Shown here piece by piece: positions 20,611 through 29,971 of a DNA stretch of 38,022 bases. Origin of the DNA: Pseudomonadota bacterium. GTDB lineage: Bacteria; Pseudomonadota; Gammaproteobacteria; Steroidobacterales; Woeseiaceae. Where the stretch lies: assembly GCA_022563505.1 (NCBI GenBank), contig JADFNG010000015.1, positions 1 to 38,022 of the forward strand, given 5' to 3'. The stretch's first letter is position 1; the number at the start of each line of letters is the position of its first letter. The notes under the pieces were generated by a model. That model saw only the letters and a list, made by a program, of their open reading frames with translations, made no database searches and was not told where the DNA came from. Position numbers and translations under genes: made by a program.

Positions 20611-20751
20611 TGTATTATCATTTGTTTATCAAATTATCTTAATGTTTATTCTGATCTTCGCTCGGGCCTTTCGGGTCGTCGCCTGCAGATGCTCGCCAGC
20701 AACTTACTCATGAGCGTGTTTTAGTATCCCAAGCAACTGATTTTTCAATGG

Positions 20752-20780
20752 TTGACATCGATTCAAGCTTCAAACATGAT
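20752..20780 (+). promoter_or_regulatory. Sigma70-type promoter of the ilv/leu operon
   Basis: A perfect -35 box TTGACA at 20752-20757 and CATGAT (4 of 6 matches) at 20775-20780 are separated by exactly 17 bp. Transcription would start near 20787, about 42 nt before the leader peptide and 236 nt before ilvC. Confidence 0.65.
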
Positions 20781-20828
20781 CGGCCCATGCAGCAAGCAAC
20801 ACAAAATGCGGTGTTTTTCTCCCCGAAG

Positions 20829-20879
20829 ATGACGGTGAAGCTTCTTACGGTGCTTCTTGGCGTGGTCCTTGTGAGGTGA
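20829..20879 (+). CDS. Branched-chain amino acid operon leader peptide
   Basis: This 16-codon ORF encodes MTVKLLTVLLGVVLVR. Five residues are Leu and five are Val, so 10 of 16 are products of the downstream pathway, and there is no Ile. All five Leu codons are CTT, while the neighbouring genes favour CTG, which would make ribosome stalling sensitive to tRNA-Leu charging. The ORF lies between the promoter (20752-20780) and an intrinsic terminator (20919-20952), before ilvC. That is the classic ribosome-mediated attenuation layout. The same frame is open back to an ATG at 20787, which would give 30 residues, but that codon coincides with the predicted transcription start. Only a weak GAAG ribosome site is visible. 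Confidence 0.85.
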   Translation: MTVKLLTVLLGVVLVR

Positions 20880-20918
20880 CATAGCGGGTAGTGCAGCATT
20901 AGCAACAAACCACACAAG

Positions 20919-20952
20919 CCCCGCATTCCAACTGGATCGTGGGGTTTTTTTT
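20919..20952 (+). terminator. Attenuator terminator of the ilv/leu operon
   Basis: CCCCGC (20919-20924) pairs with GTGGGG (20939-20944) using one G-U pair. After a 2-nt internal mismatch, TCC pairs with GGA around a 4-nt loop, and eight Ts follow (20945-20952). GCGGG at 20884-20888, just past the leader stop, is complementary to CCCGC at 20920-20924 and could form a competing antiterminator. CTTGTG inside the leader ORF can pair with CACAAG at 20913-20918. The terminator is seen directly; the switching model is inference. Confidence 0.8.
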
Positions 20953-21022: not shown

Positions 21023-22009
21023 ATGCAAATGTATACAGAAAAAGACGTCGACACTGCCATCCTGGCGGGCAAGCGCATCGCTATCCTTGGCTACGGAAGC
21101 CAGGGCCGCGCACATGCGCTGAATCTCAAGGACAGTGGTCTTGACGTCGTCGTGGGACTGCGCCCGGATGGCGCCAGCTGGCCGAAGGCCAAGGCAGACG
21201 GATTGGATGTCAAAGAACCCGCGGAGGCCGTCAAAGAGGCCGCGATAACGGCCTTTCTCACGCCGGACATGGTGCAAGCGTCGCTGTACGAGACTGTGCA
21301 GCCAAATCTGGCGGAAGGATCGGCCATTCTCTTCGCCCACGGCTTCAACATCCATTACAAACGCATCACGCCACGGGCGGACCTGGATGTCGTACTCATC
21401 GCACCCAAAGGCCCCGGCGGTCTCGTGCGTCGCCAGTATGAAGAAGGACATGGCGTTCCCTGCCTGATTGCAGTTGAGAAAGATGCCTCCGGCAAGGCGC
21501 TGGCCCTGGCGCTGGCCTATGCACACGGAATCGGTGGCGCGCGTGCCGGCGTGATCGCCACCACCTTTGCCGAAGAGACTGAAACCGACCTGTTCGGTGA
21601 ACAGGCCGTTCTTTGCGGCGGAGCCACCGAACTGGTCGTGGCGGGTTTCGAGACACTGGTGGAAGCAGGCTATCAGCCGGAAGTTGCCTATTACGAATGC
21701 ATGCATGAATTGAAGTTAATCGTTGACCTGCTGCACGAAGGCGGGTTGAAAAAAATGCATCAATTCATCAGTGATACTGCAGCTTACGGCGACCTGGTCA
21801 GCGGACCGCGCATCATCGATGCGCACGTGCGTCAGAATATGAAAGACGTTCTCAGTGACATTCAGGACGGTACGTTTGCCAATAACTGGATCAAGGAAAC
21901 GGAGAACGGCCAGAAGGAATATCGCCGCATGATGAACGAGGACCTTGCACACCCGATCGAGAAAGTCGGCGCCGCATTGCGCTCCCAGATGGACTGGCTC
22001 GATAATTAA
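21023..22009 (+). CDS. ilvC: Ketol-acid reductoisomerase (class I)
   Basis: Catalyses the NADPH-dependent isomeroreduction of acetolactate/acetohydroxybutyrate, the second common step to Val, Leu and Ile. 328 residues, the short class I form. The Rossmann motif is [17 protein letters not shown], and LRPDGASW is the cofactor-specificity loop. Metal and catalytic residues lie in [26 protein letters not shown] and [19 protein letters not shown]. The start ATG lies behind AAGAGGA; a second ATG two codons later is possible. It is the first structural gene after the attenuator. Confidence 0.96.
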
Positions 22010-22031: not shown

Positions 22032-23117
22032 ATGCCCGCACATATCGACGATCTGGATGAAACCGACTGGGGATCCGATGCCGGCTCCCCGCCGTCGCCA
22101 ATCACGCTGGCCGATGTCAAGCGTGCGCACAAAGTGATCTTACCCATCCTGCCGCCGACGCCATTGACCAGCCACCCGCTGCTGTCGGAGCGTTTGGGTA
22201 CCGAGACCTTCGTCAAACTGGAAAACGTGCAGAAGAGCGGCGCCTTCAAAATCCGTGGCGCGATCAACCTGCTCGCCGGCATGGACAAGAAAACGCGGCA
22301 ACAGGGAATTGTGACCGCCACTCGGGGTAACTACGGCATGGCGCTGGCGGAAGCCTGCGCCATGTACGACGCCAGTTGCACGGTATTCGTCCCGGAAGGC
22401 AACAGTCCGGACAAGAATGCCGCCGTGATCGCATTGGGCGGCAACATCGTGATCAAAGGGCACGATTTTGATGCGGCCTGGGATGCGTCCGTGCGGCACG
22501 CACGGCGCATTGGCGCGATTTCAATTCATCCGGCTAAACGGCCTGAACTGGTTGCGGGCCAGGGTACCGTCGCGCTTGAAATGCTGCAGCAGTGCGAGGG
22601 TAAACTGGACGTGTTATTCGTTCCGGTCGGCGGTGGCAGTCTCGCCGCGGGCGTGACCACGGTGATAAAAGCGTTATCGCCGCATACCCGGGTCATTGCG
22701 GTGCAGGCAGAGAATGCACCGGCATTTCATCATGCCTGGCACAGCAAAGAATATTCACCCATGATCGCCAATGAGACCATCGCCGACGGGCTTGCGACGC
22801 GCGTGCCGGTTCGCTACACGCTCAACATGATGCGCGATCTCGATGGTTTCGTCCTGGTCAGTGAGGAAGATATCTGCGCGGCTATCCGTTGTTACGCGCA
22901 AACACTCCACCAGATGTCCGAGGGAGGCGGTTCCGCACCGCTGGCCGCCGCCCTGAACATGAAGGATGAACTGGCCGGGCAACGCGTCGGTCTCATCCTG
23001 ACCGGCGGGAACATTGACCGGGCATCGCTGCAACGAGCGCTGCAGATCGACGCACCGGTACACACGCCACACGCGGTACCCAATTTTCCGCTGGCCAGCC
23101 TCGATTACGGCGACTGA
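22032..23117 (+). CDS. ilvA: Threonine dehydratase-like PLP enzyme lacking the ACT domain
   Basis: A fold-type II PLP enzyme of 361 residues. In this operon it probably deaminates threonine to 2-oxobutanoate, the first step to isoleucine. The PLP lysine is K73 in SGAFKIRGA, and the phosphate loop is VPVGGGSLAAG. The loop that is usually SxGNH reads TRGNY. The protein ends after the catalytic domain: the C-terminal ACT-like domains through which isoleucine inhibits classic IlvA (~510 residues) are absent, so it is the short TdcB-like form. It starts 22 bp after ilvC. A related lyase, e.g. one acting on hydroxyaspartate, is an alternative; the operon context favours threonine. Confidence 0.75.
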   Translation: MPAHIDDLDETDWGSDAGSPPSPITLADVKRAHKVILPILPPTPLTSHPLLSERLGTETFVKLENVQKSGAFKIRGAINLLAGMDKKTRQQGIVTATRGNYGMALAEACAMYDASCTVFVPEGNSPDKNAAVIALGGNIVIKGHDFDAAWDASVRHARRIGAISIHPAKRPELVAGQGTVALEMLQQCEGKLDVLFVPVGGGSLAAGVTTVIKALSPHTRVIAVQAENAPAFHHAWHSKEYSPMIANETIADGLATRVPVRYTLNMMRDLDGFVLVSEEDICAAIRCYAQTLHQMSEGGGSAPLAAALNMKDELAGQRVGLILTGGNIDRASLQRALQIDAPVHTPHAVPNFPLASLDYGD

Positions 23118-23128
23118 AAGAGAACAAC

Positions 23129-24697
23129 ATGGGCAACACTCACATAAAAATATTCGATACCACATTGCGAGATGGCGAACAGGCGCCCGGATGCAGCATG
23201 ACACTGCGCGAAAAAGTGCGCATTGCCAAAGCGCTGTGCGATCTCAATGTCGACATCATCGAGGCCGGATTTCCTGCGGCATCGCAGGGCGACTTCGATG
23301 CGGTGAAAGCCATTGCCGATGAGAATCGTGGCCCGATAATTTGCGGCTTGGCGCGATGCAATCCCGATGACATTCAAAAAGTCCATGCCGCAGTCAAAGG
23401 TGCCGACAAACATCGGATTCACGTATTCGTCGCCACCAGCGCCATTCATCGGGAATACAAGCTCAAGATGGCGAAAGAGGAAATCATCAAAAGTGCAGTC
23501 GCTGCCATCACGCTCGCACGCGAGCTTTGTGATGACGTCGAGTTTTCCCCTGAAGATGCATCCCGCACCGAACTCGCCTACCTGGCGGAGGTTGTTACGG
23601 CTGCGATTGAAGCCGGTGCAACGACGGTGAATGTCCCGGATACCGTCGGCTACACCGTGCCGTCGGAATTTGACAACCTGTTCCGTTATTTGAAGAAAAA
23701 TGTGCCGGGCATCGACGACATTACCTTGAGCGTGCATTGCCACAACGACCTGGGCATGGCGGTGGCCAACAGCCTGGCGGCAATAGTCGCCGGAGCGCGA
23801 CAAATCGAATGTACGATCAACGGCATCGGTGAGCGTGCCGGCAATTGCTCGCTCGAAGAAGTCATCATGGCAATCAGGACACGTGCCGAATATTTTGAGC
23901 TGGAGACGGGCATCGACTCCACTCGACTGTATCCGACTGCCCGCCTGGTCGCCGGTGTTATCGGCATGCAGATTCCCCGCAACAAGGCAATCGTGGGTGA
24001 AAATGCCTTTGCCCATGAGGCTGGAATCCATCAGCACGGCATGCTGCAGCACCATTCGACCTACGAAATCATGCGGCCGCAAGACGTCGGGCTGAGCGAG
24101 ACCCACCTGGTTCTTGGCAAGCACAGCGGCCGCCATGCTTTTCGCGAGCGCGTCAAAGAGCTGGGGTTCGACCTCGATGAATTCGAGACCAACCGCGCCT
24201 TCCTGGAGTTCAAGAGCCTCGCCGACAAGAAAAAGAACATGTACGACGGGGATATCGAAGCGATTATCATGAACGCGGGCAGCGCCTCCTCCGGACCGTG
24301 GCTTCTTAAATCCATGCAGGTTTCCTCCGGCACCGATCAACCCGCAACGGCAAGCATCACGCTGGTCGATGAACAAAATAATGAAATCTCGGAGACTGCC
24401 GAGGCCTCAGGACCGGTCGAGGCGGCGTTTCAGGCACTCGAAAGTGCCACCGGTGTGAATCTGACCCTGAAGAAGTTCGAGTTGCACAGTGCAACGATTG
24501 GCGACGATGCTCAGGGTGAAGTTACCGTGACGGTTGAATACAACAATCAGCCACATCGCGGTCATGCGGCATGCGTCGATATTGTGGAAGCCGGCAGCCG
24601 GGCTTACCTGGAGGTTATCAACCGCATCCTGAGACGCCGGCAACGCGGGATGGACAAAGTCGCCGTCGAGCCCGACGTGAATCGAGTACCCATTTAA
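23129..24697 (+). CDS. leuA: 2-isopropylmalate synthase
   Basis: Condenses acetyl-CoA with 2-oxoisovalerate, the committed step to leucine. 522 residues, the LeuA type 1 length. The HMGL-like TIM barrel starts with FDTTLRDGEQAPGCSM. Metal-binding HCHNDLGMAVANS and the GIGERAGNCSLEEV motif follow, then NAFAHEAGIHQHGML. The C-terminal allosteric leucine-binding domain begins near residue 390 (SSGPWLLKSMQVSSG) and is intact, so feedback inhibition by leucine is expected. It lies 11 bp after the ilvA-like gene, with AAGAGAA before the ATG. Confidence 0.96.
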   Translation: MGNTHIKIFDTTLRDGEQAPGCSMTLREKVRIAKALCDLNVDIIEAGFPAASQGDFDAVKAIADENRGPIICGLARCNPDDIQKVHAAVKGADKHRIHVFVATSAIHREYKLKMAKEEIIKSAVAAITLARELCDDVEFSPEDASRTELAYLAEVVTAAIEAGATTVNVPDTVGYTVPSEFDNLFRYLKKNVPGIDDITLSVHCHNDLGMAVANSLAAIVAGARQIECTINGIGERAGNCSLEEVIMAIRTRAEYFELETGIDSTRLYPTARLVAGVIGMQIPRNKAIVGENAFAHEAGIHQHGMLQHHSTYEIMRPQDVGLSETHLVLGKHSGRHAFRERVKELGFDLDEFETNRAFLEFKSLADKKKNMYDGDIEAIIMNAGSASSGPWLLKSMQVSSGTDQPATASITLVDEQNNEISETAEASGPVEAAFQALESATGVNLTLKKFELHSATIGDDAQGEVTVTVEYNNQPHRGHAACVDIVEAGSRAYLEVINRILRRRQRGMDKVAVEPDVNRVPI

Positions 24698-24781
24698 ATC
24701 ACAAAACGCGGGTGCGAAGCCAGAGAACCCTTGATAGAGTATGCGTCCCAATATTTGCGCGGCCGAGCGCGGAGACAGAGC

Positions 24782-25726
24782 ATGAGTTTTGACGGTGGAA
24801 AATTAATCTGGTTAAACGGCCGGATGGTGCCATGGAACGAAGCAACAATTCACATAATGGCGCACGCCCTGCACTACGGATCCTCGGTATTTGAGGGCAT
24901 TCGCATGTACAAGACTCCGCTCGGCCCGAGGATTTTCCGCCTGACGGATCACATGAAGAGACTTTATGATTCCGCGAAGATTTACCGCATGCCCATTCCC
25001 TACGAATTGCATGAGCTCATCAATGTTTGCAAGGAAGTGATTGTCGCCAATGACCTGACGGATGGTGCCTACCTCCGACCCATCGCTTTGCGCGGCTACG
25101 GCGAGATCGGACTTGCACCAAAACCGGATCACCCGGTGGACGTCGCGATCGCCGCCTGGCATTGGGGCGCCTACCTCGGCAACGAAGCACTGGAACAAGG
25201 AGTCGATGTCTGCATATCCAGCTGGCAGCGCGCCGCACCGAACACCCTGCCCGCGCTCGCGAAAGCGGGTGGCAATTATCTTTCCAGCCAATTGATCAGC
25301 ACTGAAGCGAAACGGCTTGGATTTGCGGAGGGCATTGCTTTGTCCACCGACGGCACGGTCAGTGAGGGCGCCGGCGAAAATCTTTTCGTCATTCGTGACG
25401 GTGAACTCATGACGCCGTCCGCAAACTCATCGATCCTGCCCGGCCTCACCCGCGATTCGATCATCAAACTGGCAAAACGGCTTGGCATGCCCGTAAAGGA
25501 ATGTACAATTCCGCGCGAAGCACTTTACCTGGCCGATGAATTATTTTTTACTGGCACCGCCGCGGAAATCACACCGATTCGATCAGTCGACCGAATACAG
25601 ATCGGCAGTGGCAAACGCGGCCCCATTACGGAGAGACTGCAGCGCGCGTTTTTTGGCCTGTTCAATGGCGAGACTGACGACAACGATGGCTGGCTGGAAG
25701 ATCTGCAGCCAGTGGCCAAATCCTGA
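24782..25726 (+). CDS. ilvE: Branched-chain amino acid aminotransferase
   Basis: Catalyses the final transamination giving Leu, Ile and Val, with glutamate as donor. A fold-type IV PLP enzyme of 314 residues. Features are IHIMAHALHYGSSVFEGIRMY, the PLP lysine in ALAKAGGNYLSSQL, ISTEAKRLGFAEGIALSTDG, SEGAGENLFV and SILPGLTRDSIIKLA. ATG 24782, with GGAGACAG upstream, is chosen over the in-frame TTG at 24731 because it matches the family N-terminus (GKLIWLNGRMVPW). The 84-bp gap after leuA shows no terminator, so it is probably co-transcribed. Confidence 0.95.
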   Translation: MSFDGGKLIWLNGRMVPWNEATIHIMAHALHYGSSVFEGIRMYKTPLGPRIFRLTDHMKRLYDSAKIYRMPIPYELHELINVCKEVIVANDLTDGAYLRPIALRGYGEIGLAPKPDHPVDVAIAAWHWGAYLGNEALEQGVDVCISSWQRAAPNTLPALAKAGGNYLSSQLISTEAKRLGFAEGIALSTDGTVSEGAGENLFVIRDGELMTPSANSSILPGLTRDSIIKLAKRLGMPVKECTIPREALYLADELFFTGTAAEITPIRSVDRIQIGSGKRGPITERLQRAFFGLFNGETDDNDGWLEDLQPVAKS

Positions 25727-25750
25727 AACGAGCATGCACTCATAACGCGA

Positions 25751-27157
25751 ATGAGCACAACACAGCCAAAGACCTTGTATGAAAAAGTCTGGTCAGAGCA
25801 TCTGGTCGTCAACGAGACGGACGATGCGCCCGCCATTCTGTACATCGACCTGCACCTGATTCACGAAGTGACGACGCCGCAGGCGTTCTCATTACTCAGT
25901 GAACGCGGGCTGCCGGTGCGACGCCCGGATCTCACATTGGCGACGATGGATCATTCCACGCCGACGACCCCGGTACGAACATTGAAAGACCTGCAAATCG
26001 CCGGTAAGGGCGCAGCCGCACAAGTTCTGAAGATGCAGGAAAACTGTCGACAGTTCGGCATCGATTTGCTGGACTTCGACAACGAACAACGTGGCATCGT
26101 GCACATCATCGGTCCGGAACTCGGCGCGACCCAACCGGGCAAGACCATTGTTTGCGGCGACAGCCACACCAGCACGCACGGTGCTTTTGGCGCGCTCGCC
26201 TTTGGCATCGGGACGACCGAGGTTGCCCATGTCCTCGCGACGCAGTGCCTGTTGCAACGCAGCGCCAGGACGCTGCTCATCGAATTTTCGGGTGAACTGC
26301 AGACAGGCGTTACGGCGAAAGACGTCATCCTTGCCACCATTGGTCAGATCGGCGTTGACGGCGGCATCGGGCACGTCATCGAATATTGCGGCACAGTCAT
26401 TTCGGCAATGGACATGGAAGCACGCATGACGATCTGCAATATGTCCATTGAAGCCGGTGCGCGGGCCGGCCTGATCGCGCCAGACGACACGACGTTCGAT
26501 TACCTGCTCGGTCGACCCTGGTCACCGCAAGACACGGCATGGGATGAAGCCGTGACACGATGGCGTCAACTGCCCACCGATGAGGGTGCGCATTTCGACA
26601 AGAGCGTCTCAGTGGATGGAAAAGCACTCGAACCCATGGTGACCTTCGGCACCAACCCTGGCATGGTCGTGGCGATCAACGACCCGGTGCCAGAAGACGG
26701 CGATGCCGCATTCAGGAAAGCGATCGAATACATGCAAATTACGCCCGGCAAGCCGCTTTCCGAGTCACGCGTTGATGTCGTATTTATTGGCAGTTGTACC
26801 AATTCGAGAATCTCCGATTTGCAGCAAGCCGCCCGCATTTTTGCAGGACGAAAAGTCGCCCCGGGCGTCAGGGCACTGGTCGTGCCAGGGTCGCAGCAAA
26901 TCAAACGTGAAGCGGAAGCGTTGGGTCTCGACAAGATCTTCGCAGAAGCCGGAGTCGAGTGGCGTGAGTCGGGGTGTTCCATGTGTATTGGCATGAACGG
27001 CGACACAGTCCCCTCCGGAAAACTCAGCGTCAGCACCAGCAACCGCAATTTCGAAGGCCGGCAAGGCAAGGGGGCGCGGACCATACTCGCCAGCCCGCTA
27101 ACCGCTGCGGCTTCCGCAATAGAAGGCCGGGTCGCTGATCCGCGCCGCTACCTGTGA
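25751..27157 (+). CDS. leuC: 3-isopropylmalate dehydratase, large subunit
   Basis: With LeuD it isomerises 2- to 3-isopropylmalate. An aconitase-family [4Fe-4S] enzyme of 468 residues. Features are [34 protein letters not shown], and the cluster ligands in FIGSCTNSR and [10 protein letters not shown] (C-x2-C). [10 protein letters not shown] lies near the C-terminus. It starts 24 bp after ilvE with only a weak ribosome site, which suggests dependence on upstream translation. Confidence 0.97.
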
Positions 27158-27164
27158 ATTGTCA

Positions 27165-27749
27165 ATGAAGCCGATTAGCAAAATCCAGTCGCGTACCGTG
27201 AACTTCGCGAACACCGATATCGATACTGACCAGATCATCCCTGCCCGCTTCCTGACGACGACGACACGCGAGGGTCTTGGCCAGCATCTGTTTCACGACT
27301 GGCGCTACCTTCCGGACGGCTCGTCCAACAAGGACTTCATTCTCAACAAGCCCGACTCGGCCGGTTGCAAAATACTGGTCGCAGGACGTAACTTCGGCTG
27401 CGGTTCTTCACGTGAACACGCTCCCTGGGCTCTCCAGGAATTTGGCATCGATGCCGTGATCAGCTCGGAAATTGCTGATATTTTTCGCTCGAACTCGCTG
27501 AAAAACGGTTTATTGCCGATCGTTGTGGATGAGGGCACGCTCGACTGGTTGCTCGAGCATCCGTATACCGAAGTAACCATTGATGTGGTTCGGTCAACAC
27601 TGACGCTCGCTGATGGCACCACGGTCAATTATCCCATCGACAACTTTGCACGCTACTGTCTCGTGGAAGGTATTGACCAGCTTGGTTTTCTGCAAAAACG
27701 GGCAAGCGAAATTGAACAATTCGAGGAGAGCAGACCCTGGACGCCCTGA
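27165..27749 (+). CDS. leuD: 3-isopropylmalate dehydratase, small subunit
   Basis: The swivelling-domain partner of LeuC, about 194 residues. Features are [36 protein letters not shown], the segment [19 protein letters not shown], and a C-terminal [17 protein letters not shown] 27165 gives the usual N-terminus; a TTG at 27159 is an in-frame alternative. It begins 7 bp after leuC without a good Shine-Dalgarno, consistent with coupling. Its last codons contain the ribosome site and probable start codon of leuB. Confidence 0.96.
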
Positions 27750-28801
27750 TTACTGTGTTGCCCGGTGACGGCATTGGTCCCGAAGTCACTGCCGCTGGCA
27801 CCAAAATGCTGGCAGCCGTTGCTGCACGATCCGGTCACAACTTCACTTTCTCAGCACAGCTGATCGGTGGTGCGGCCATCGACGCCACCGGTGAGCCATT
27901 GCCACAGGACACCATCGACAGCTGCCGCGAGAGTGATGCCGTGATTCTGGGTGCTGTCGGCGGACCCCGATGGTCGGACCCGAATGCTGCGACGCGCCCC
28001 GAACAAGGCATACTCGCGCTCCGTGCAGCGCTACAAGTGTTCGCAAATATCCGGCCAGTGCAGATATTTCCCGAACTGGCCGACGCCTCTCCACTGAAGA
28101 ACGAATTGCTGGAGGGTGTCGATCTTGTGGTCATCCGCGAACTGACCGGCGGTATTTATTTCGGCGAGAAAAATCGCGACGCGCATTCGGCCAGCGACTT
28201 ATGCATTTATCACGACTACGAGGTCGAACGAATCGTGCGTTTCGCAGCACGGCTTGCCGCCGAGCGCAGCGGCAAACTTTGCTCCGTTGACAAAGCGAAC
28301 GTTTTGGAGTCATCGCGGTTGTGGCGGGATGTGACCGTCAAACTCATGGCTGACGAATTCCCGGATATTGAACTTGAGCACATGCTTGTCGACGCGGCAG
28401 CGATGCACCTGATTCGCCGTCCGGCCGATTTCGACGTCATCGTGACTGAAAATATGTTCGGCGACATTCTGACGGATGAGGCATCGATGCTCGCAGGATC
28501 CATGGGCATGCTGCCATCGGCATCGCTTGGCGATTCCGGTCCCGGGCTGTATGAACCCATCCACGGATCGGCACCGGATATCGCAGGACAAGGCATTGCT
28601 AACCCCTGCGGCATGCTTGCAAGCATCGCCATGCTGTTGCGACACAGCCTGAAACTTGAGGAAGAGGCGCACGCGGTCGAGCAGGCAATTCAAACCGTTA
28701 TCTGTGACGGGGCACGGACTGCAGACATTGCCACCGGCGGCGTGACGCCGCTCAATACAGAGCAGATGACCGACAGAATCGTGGCGGCGTTACCCGCCTG
28801 A
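27737..28801 (+). CDS. leuB: 3-isopropylmalate dehydrogenase, probable CTG start
   Basis: Oxidatively decarboxylates 3-isopropylmalate with NAD+ to the leucine keto acid. Features are [69 protein letters not shown] and [18 protein letters not shown]. The first conventional start is GTG 27755, but it would cut off most of the first beta strand (LITVLPGDG). The frame closes at a TGA at 27713, and no ATG, TTG or other GTG lies between. CTG 27737 stands 6 bp after GAGGAGAG (27723-27730) and restores the normal N-terminus ([12 protein letters not shown]). It would overlap leuD by 13 bp. The family call is certain; the start is inference. Confidence 0.93.
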
Positions 28802-28807
28802 CCTGCA

Positions 28808-29971
28808 TCAGATGACGATTTCCGGTGGTGTTTCCCGCAAATTGTACTGGGACGACATGACGCGGCCATAGGCCCCGGTATTTGCAATCACAATGACGTC
28901 ATTTTCGCGGCTCGGCGGCATTTTCCGATCCACGCCAAAGGTATCGCCGGTTTCGCAGATAAGCCCGACAATATTGACCGTCTCGGTTGCCGGCTCATCG
29001 TAGCGAGTCAGGTTTACGATCTCATGAAATGCGTCATACAGCGCCGGGCGGATCAACGCATTCATGCCGGTGCCAACACCGATGTAACGCCTGTCGCCTT
29101 TGCCTTTCAACTGCGTCACATGCGTTAGAAGAACACCGGCTTCTGCAACCAGGTAACGTCCGGGTTCCAACCAGAATTGGTATGCCGGGAATTGTGCCTT
29201 GACCTCCCCAAGTGCCTGGTCCATCGCCTGCAGATCGAACGGCGTTCCACCGAGACGATCCGGCACACCCAGCCCGCCACCAAGATCCAGTACGGCCACA
29301 TTCGGGAATCGGGCGGCAATGCGGGCCAGTTCGGTGGCGACATTGCCCCAACTGCCTGATTCCGGAATACCGCTGCCGCTATGTGCATGAATGCCGACCA
29401 CGTCCGCACCGGCCTTGTCAACCAGGGAAACAAGCTCATCGATTTCAAAACGCGGGATACCGAATTTGGAATGATTCCCCGCCGTCTTCACGTGTTTATG
29501 ATGGCCGTATCCTGCGCCCGGATCCACGCGCAAAAATATCTTTTGCCCGGAAAAATACTCCGGCCAGGCCTGCAATGGGTACAGGTTGTCGAGCGTGACC
29601 TGGATACCAAAGTCCTTGCTCCATTGGTAGTCTTCACGCGGTGCAAAATTTGGCGTAAACAGAATCCGGGTTTTCTCCAAATCGGGGACAACGCGGAGCA
29701 AGTGTTCAACTTCCCCCGGTGACACGCATTCAAAGTCAACATCCAGGGAAGCCAGCAAGCGGAGAACGTCAGGATTGAAATTCGCCTTCATCGCATACAG
29801 AACCCGATCAATCGACCGCAAACCGCGCAGGCGCTGCACGGATTGCCGGATCGTTTGCAGATCGTAGACATAGGCATTCAGCTGACGAGCTGCGATTTCG
29901 AGAAGCTCTGTTCGCCGGCTGAGCCACCACACGGACTCTGCGCTACTCGACTGCGGTTCTTGCTGCGTCAT
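28808..29971 (-). CDS. lysA: Diaminopimelate decarboxylase, stand-alone form of the LysAC decarboxylase domain
   Basis: A fold-type III PLP decarboxylase of 387 residues that likely converts meso-diaminopimelate to lysine. The PLP lysine is K62 (YAMKANFNPDVL). Further features are FECVSPGEVEHLL, ILFTPNFAPREDY, IHAHSGSGI, DLGGGLGVPDRL, WLEPGRYLV and GLICETGDTFGVDRK (the CESGD-type motif from the other subunit). The sequence, including the N-terminal WWLSRRTELLEIA before AYVYD, matches the C-terminal half of the bifunctional aspartate kinase/diaminopimelate decarboxylase of Xanthomonadales much better than ordinary LysA. The kinase half is absent and nothing like it lies upstream. GGGAAA precedes the ATG. 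The stop is 6 bp from the leuB stop (convergent). Confidence 0.85.
   Translation of the reverse strand: MTQQEPQSSSAESVWWLSRRTELLEIAARQLNAYVYDLQTIRQSVQRLRGLRSIDRVLYAMKANFNPDVLRLLASLDVDFECVSPGEVEHLLRVVPDLEKTRILFTPNFAPREDYQWSKDFGIQVTLDNLYPLQAWPEYFSGQKIFLRVDPGAGYGHHKHVKTAGNHSKFGIPRFEIDELVSLVDKAGADVVGIHAHSGSGIPESGSWGNVATELARIAARFPNVAVLDLGGGLGVPDRLGGTPFDLQAMDQALGEVKAQFPAYQFWLEPGRYLVAEAGVLLTHVTQLKGKGDRRYIGVGTGMNALIRPALYDAFHEIVNLTRYDEPATETVNIVGLICETGDTFGVDRKMPPSRENDVIVIANTGAYGRVMSSQYNLRETPPEIVI

Follow-up and report, generated by a model that had tools for sequence, protein, structure and literature searches.

A predicted leaderless Leu/Val leader peptide and transcription attenuator upstream of the ilvC-leu operon in a family of marine Gammaproteobacteria

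The ilv and leu operons of Escherichia coli are controlled by ribosome-mediated attenuators that make use of Leu, Val and Ile codons. Their leaders carry Shine-Dalgarno sites and multi-stem alternatives (1:2, 2:3 and 3:4). Proteobacterial attenuators have reportedly been surveyed by Vitreschak et al. in 2004. The ilvBNC attenuator of Corynebacterium glutamicum, as summarized in PMC11857589 (citing Morbach et al. 2000), has a leader start codon one nucleotide from the transcription start. In Sinorhizobium meliloti, the leader peptide ATG forms the very 5′ end of the trpL attenuator RNA (rnTrpL; PMC7298713). For ilvB1NC of Mycobacterium tuberculosis, a model has been described in which a ribosome that has reached the leader stop codon hides about 26 nt and thereby keeps the antiterminator from forming (PMC13236596).

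Here we analysed a window of 38,022 nt, which is a contig of a 2.6-Mb draft genome that is 82.5% complete. An earlier note on this DNA had proposed attenuation by a Leu/Val leader peptide in front of an ilvC-leu operon, and comparison with relatives strongly supports this proposal. Judged from its sequence, the element is very probably a ribosome-mediated transcription attenuator for Leu (and Val) that is built on a leaderless leader peptide. It differs from the ilv and leu leaders of E. coli in its apparently leaderless initiation and in that we detected no conserved protector stem. The element resembles C. glutamicum ilvBNC in its branched-chain operon, a start codon near the RNA 5′ end (predicted here) and a terminator that is set against an antiterminator. 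However, as far as the account in PMC11857589 goes, the latter system belongs to another phylum and another operon and uses a 15-codon Ile/Val/Leu leader in a three-hairpin model. In the family of the window, by contrast, the leader is Leu-dominated, has 21-36 codons and carries the antiterminator strand at or beside the stop codon; no homology is claimed. With S. meliloti trpL it shares the proteobacterial attenuator RNA with a leader ATG at the 5′ end (predicted here), but trpL is alphaproteobacterial, senses Trp and controls trpE(G) (PMC7298713). A stop-codon ribosome that hides the antiterminator, as proposed here, is also part of the M. tuberculosis ilvB1NC model, where the regulatory codons (LVVI) and the operon differ and the sequence is unrelated (PMC13236596). 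The features of the locus are as follows.

20725-20740, + strand: conserved block TATCCCAAGCAACTGA, directly 5′ of the -35 element; family consensus TATCACAAGTAACTGA
20752-20780, + strand: sigma70-type promoter, TTGACA-N17-CATGAT
20752-20757, + strand: -35 element, TTGACA
20775-20780, + strand: -10 element, CATGAT; spacer to the -35 element 17 nt
20787-20879, + strand: predicted leader peptide ORF, 30 codons plus TGA, MQQATQNAVFFSPKMTVKLLTVLLGVVLVR; ATG at, or adjacent to, the predicted transcription start
20835-20873, + strand: putative regulatory codon block VKLLTVLLGVVLV
20884-20888, + strand: GCGGG, proposed 5′ strand of the antiterminator; directly before the stop codon (GCGGG-TAG) in most relatives
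20889-20891, + strand: conserved TAG, leader stop codon in relatives; here in frame, four codons past the TGA in use
20891-20893, + strand: GUG, proposed 5′ strand of antiterminator helix 2; pairs with CAC 20913-20915
20916-20952, + strand: intrinsic terminator; stem 20916-20924/20939-20947, inner stem 20927-20929/20934-20936, U8 tract 20945-20952
21023-22009, + strand: ilvC, ketol-acid reductoisomerase
22032-23117, + strand: short Ser/Thr dehydratase-like gene of the PALP family, lacking the PF00585 regulatory domain
23129-28801, + strand: leuA, ilvE, leuC, leuD and leuB

The -35/-10 pair with 17-bp spacing that had been noticed earlier is present, and the TTGACA-17-CATNAT layout is common to nearly all relatives. 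The 16-bp block upstream of it was found before ilvC in 11 family genomes with 0-2 mismatches and is, apparently, largely specific to this promoter position. It is a candidate activator (transcription-factor) or UP-type site and, as such, would add a second layer of control to the ilvC promoter. ATG 20787 lies 6 nt after the -10 element, and its frame is open through to the ORF at 20829-20879 (MTVKLLTVLLGVVLVR*). The latter ORF, with five Leu and five Val codons, had been proposed as a 16-codon leader; the Leu/Val-rich frame stands, but its start has to be moved upstream, as the conserved ATG 20787 gives 30 codons.

Among 26 aligned loci, 24 carry an ATG or GTG start codon 6-8 nt after the -10 element. 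In 24 of the 26 leaders, the reading frame from this predicted 5′-end start has 21-36 codons and closes at or beside the conserved GCGGG; in most relatives it ends in GCGGGTAG. The exceptions are L008 (start at 10 nt) and L022 (ATT in place of ATG), in both of which start and stop are irregular; four of the 26 starts were assigned by hand, and L011 was omitted as unclear. Differences in the length of the leader ORF are always whole codons. A covariance model was built from the 3′ part of the element, and its top 30 loci, 17 of them flagged as outside the training set, were inspected. All 30, which overlap the set of 26 aligned leaders, have TTGACA-17 and an uninterrupted in-frame ORF up to a GCGGGTA(G/A) stop, with the start 7-8 nt past the -10 element (11 nt in one). 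Judging from the promoter spacing, the transcript is predicted to be leaderless, with its start at or within 2 nt of ATG 20787. In the window, TGA 20877-20879 ends the leader four codons before the conserved TAG 20889, unlike in the same-genus relative; this early stop may reflect genuine drift or a mistake in the draft assembly. The leader of L014 also stops just 5′ of GCGGG.

The Leu/Val codons of the leader are conserved in relatives. All 11 Leu/Val codons of block 20835-20873 encode an unchanged amino acid in the same-genus relative (two of them with a synonymous CTT to CTA change), whereas most other leader codons change amino acid (Fisher p 3e-4). Leu makes up 25.5% of residues in the family leaders versus 10% in the genes of the window. 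That all five Leu codons of ORF 20829-20879 are CTT, as noted earlier, is true; a tabulation of the window's genes gives CTT as 13% of Leu codons, so that five of five has a p of about 4e-5. Leaders of relatives overuse this codon as well (65 of 186 Leu codons).

The usual ribosome covers bases up to the first base of the P-site codon plus 15. Using this edge (P-site +15 nt), we binned the codons of 24 aligned leaders by its position relative to GCGGG. Where the edge clears GCGGG by 0-29 nt, 168 of 240 codons encode Leu, Val or Ile (70%). Where it covers GCGGG, only one codon in 114 does so (1%), and further upstream of the clearing zone the count is 80/315 (25%). The enrichment in the clearing zone gives Fisher p values of 3e-41 and 5e-26, which are indicative only, because the leaders are related, and are not true probabilities. 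In relatives, the three codons that separate the Leu block from GCGGG also show constraint on their nucleotides (GGGAG), and this could make the edge of the codon block look sharper. In the window, a ribosome stalled at the last Leu codon (20868) reaches to 20880 and leaves GCGGG free; one at TGA 20877 reaches to 20889 and hides GCGGG. CTCC-TT-GGGAG recurs at the end of the Leu block before the leader stop in relatives such as L036, L020 and L006. In many genomes this sequence could fold into a small hairpin; it is not kept in the window.

Of the RNA elements of the locus, the terminator is the best conserved, and 26 sequences share a consensus structure for it. The eight Ts described before follow a hairpin at 20916-20947 of -18.2 kcal/mol (z -4.7 versus shuffles); a simple terminator scan missed this hairpin, probably owing to its internal loop. 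As the earlier note had pointed out, GCGGG 20884-20888 can pair with the terminator's left arm, at CCCGC 20920-20924, and this pairing is present in 97% of cells in the alignment of 26 sequences. The core barely varies and hence shows no covariation of its own. In duplex tests on single sequences, GCGGG complementarity was not above chance, and the wrong arm was picked in L006 and L019; the weight of this pairing comes from its conserved position. One leader, L017, lacks GCGGG, and GGCCGGU/ACCGGCC is possible at the same place. Compensatory changes, which had been suggested as a check, were observed at all three pairs of helix 2 in the 26 sequences: GUG/CAC in the window is GCG/CGC in most relatives or ACG/CGU. 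The covariation score of the antiterminator exceeded 500/500 shuffles and every slid control.

The fold of the whole leader is not unusual versus shuffles (z -0.46), and the case thus rests on conservation. No conserved protector (1:2) hairpin was found, and the fold of 20787-20900 is no better than that of shuffles. Mutually exclusive structures, another suggested check, did emerge from folding of partial transcripts. With a stall at 20868 and the right arm of the terminator not yet made, the exposed RNA folds into exactly the proposed antiterminator (-8.9 kcal/mol), and with the ribosome at the TGA the antiterminator is absent from the fold. As the antiterminator (-8.9) is weaker than the terminator (-17.7), it must form first to win. 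With the ribosome halted earlier, at 20853, a competing stem (CUUGUG/CACAAG) is favoured in the genus of the window. This stem, 20868-20873 with 20913-20918, crosses the antiterminator; it is largely present in the same-genus relative and was not seen in other relatives.

From the parts, their conservation, the compensation in pairing and the footprint geometry, we infer a transcription start, a translation and a starvation response that would work together as follows. The ribosome would initiate at the RNA 5′ end, at ATG 20787, and then trail RNA polymerase. If Leu-tRNA (or Val-tRNA) were scarce, it would stall in block 20835-20873 with its leading edge short of GCGGG 20884. The free GCGGG would then pair with CCCGC 20920-20924, together with GUG/CAC, and would occupy the left arm of the terminator, so that RNA polymerase would read through into ilvC-leuA-ilvE-leuCDB. 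If charged tRNA were plentiful, the ribosome would reach the stop codon and physically cover GCGGG; the terminator would form, and transcription would end at the U8 tract.

Of 107 family genomes scanned with the covariance model, 90 yielded the element, mostly once per genome, and 43 of the 45 good ones are among them. Absence of the ORF or the stem from relatives had been named in advance as an outcome that would speak against the attenuator; both are conserved in relatives. Among 276 genomes spread over the class, strong scores were confined to the two family members, with only weak hits outside the family. In Steroidobacteraceae-like groups outside the family, we observed a similar layout in which a GCGGG-containing strand (often GGTGCGGGG) lies within the ORF, mostly 17-29 nt before its end, and can pair with the terminator CCCCGCACC. 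Several of these leaders appear to be leaderless too. L041, L043, L047, L050, L058 and L060 are Steroidobacteraceae-like loci of this kind, with an in-frame antiterminator strand and a geometry unlike that of the window's family.

Three other explanations of the locus have to be weighed. The same attenuator might use a 16-codon leader from ATG 20829, on a transcript with a 42-nt untranslated leader. This ATG is in frame and the Leu/Val block follows directly. However, the sequence before it (TCTCCCCGAAG-ATG) offers no suitably spaced Shine-Dalgarno site, the codon lies inside the longer ORF and is not kept in relatives (it is ACG in the one from the same genus), and the start that relatives conserve is the one 6-8 nt past the -10 element. 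We consider the shorter leader improbable. That the terminator is real and sensed in another way, by a T-box, a riboswitch or an RNA-binding protein, with the ORF being incidental, would agree with the terminator being the most conserved RNA element. However, no Rfam family, including the T-box covariance model, matched the window at its gathering score, and a relaxed threshold gave no credible match, only one chance hit far under its cut-off. Such a sensor would also leave the open frame, the length changes in multiples of three and the Leu/Val placement unexplained, and it is very unlikely.

Chance could likewise combine an unconstrained short ORF with a terminator that belongs to an upstream gene or has no function. 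Short hydrophobic ORFs are common, and the whole-leader fold is, as described above, no better than that of shuffles. Conservation in about 90 family genomes, with the same layout in 30/30 inspected loci, refutes this explanation, which we regard as scarcely credible. The attenuator with a leaderless leader peptide from ATG 20787 is the reading that we follow below.

The operon had been described as having seven genes, and these are ilvC, the dehydratase, leuA, ilvE, leuC, leuD and leuB. The order ilvC, leuA, ilvE, leuC, leuD, leuB is common to three other genera of the family. Among five operons compared, the PALP dehydratase lies between ilvC and leuA in both operons of the window's genus and in 0/3 from other genera. 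This gene had been taken for an Ile-specific ilvA, which is not supported: it is a short PALP dehydratase without PF00585. Another contig of the same genome holds an open frame with two copies of PF00585, the arrangement of biosynthetic IlvA. With the IlvA regulatory domains encoded there, the lack of an Ile signal is not paradoxical, and a Leu/Val signal is what the genes of the operon would lead one to expect. Acetolactate synthase is located elsewhere in two relatives, where no second attenuator of the same type was obvious at its locus; in the incomplete genome of the window, nothing scored over the cut-off for this enzyme. Downstream of the operon, a convergent lysA-type gene (28808-29971, - strand) matches the C-terminal half of a bifunctional aspartate kinase/diaminopimelate decarboxylase model.

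No description of the element in this family was found in the literature, in a search that mostly did not reach subscription papers. A leaderless leader and masking by the ribosome are already known elsewhere; the attenuator of this family is well supported and appears to be new. Somewhat more tentatively, the locus may represent an undescribed family-wide architecture, in which the leading edge of a ribosome on a leaderless Leu leader gates the antiterminator strand at the stop codon without a protector hairpin, the footprint determines where the Leu block ends, and an altered form occurs in related groups; we regard this as quite possible. Our analysis corrects the start of the peptide and removes the supposed isoleucine paradox. 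The leader is a short RNA that annotation has missed. In this compact attenuator, codon placement, stop codon and pairing strand align with the ribosome footprint across dozens of species, and it leads us to expect leaderless translation in a bacterial family that has been little studied.
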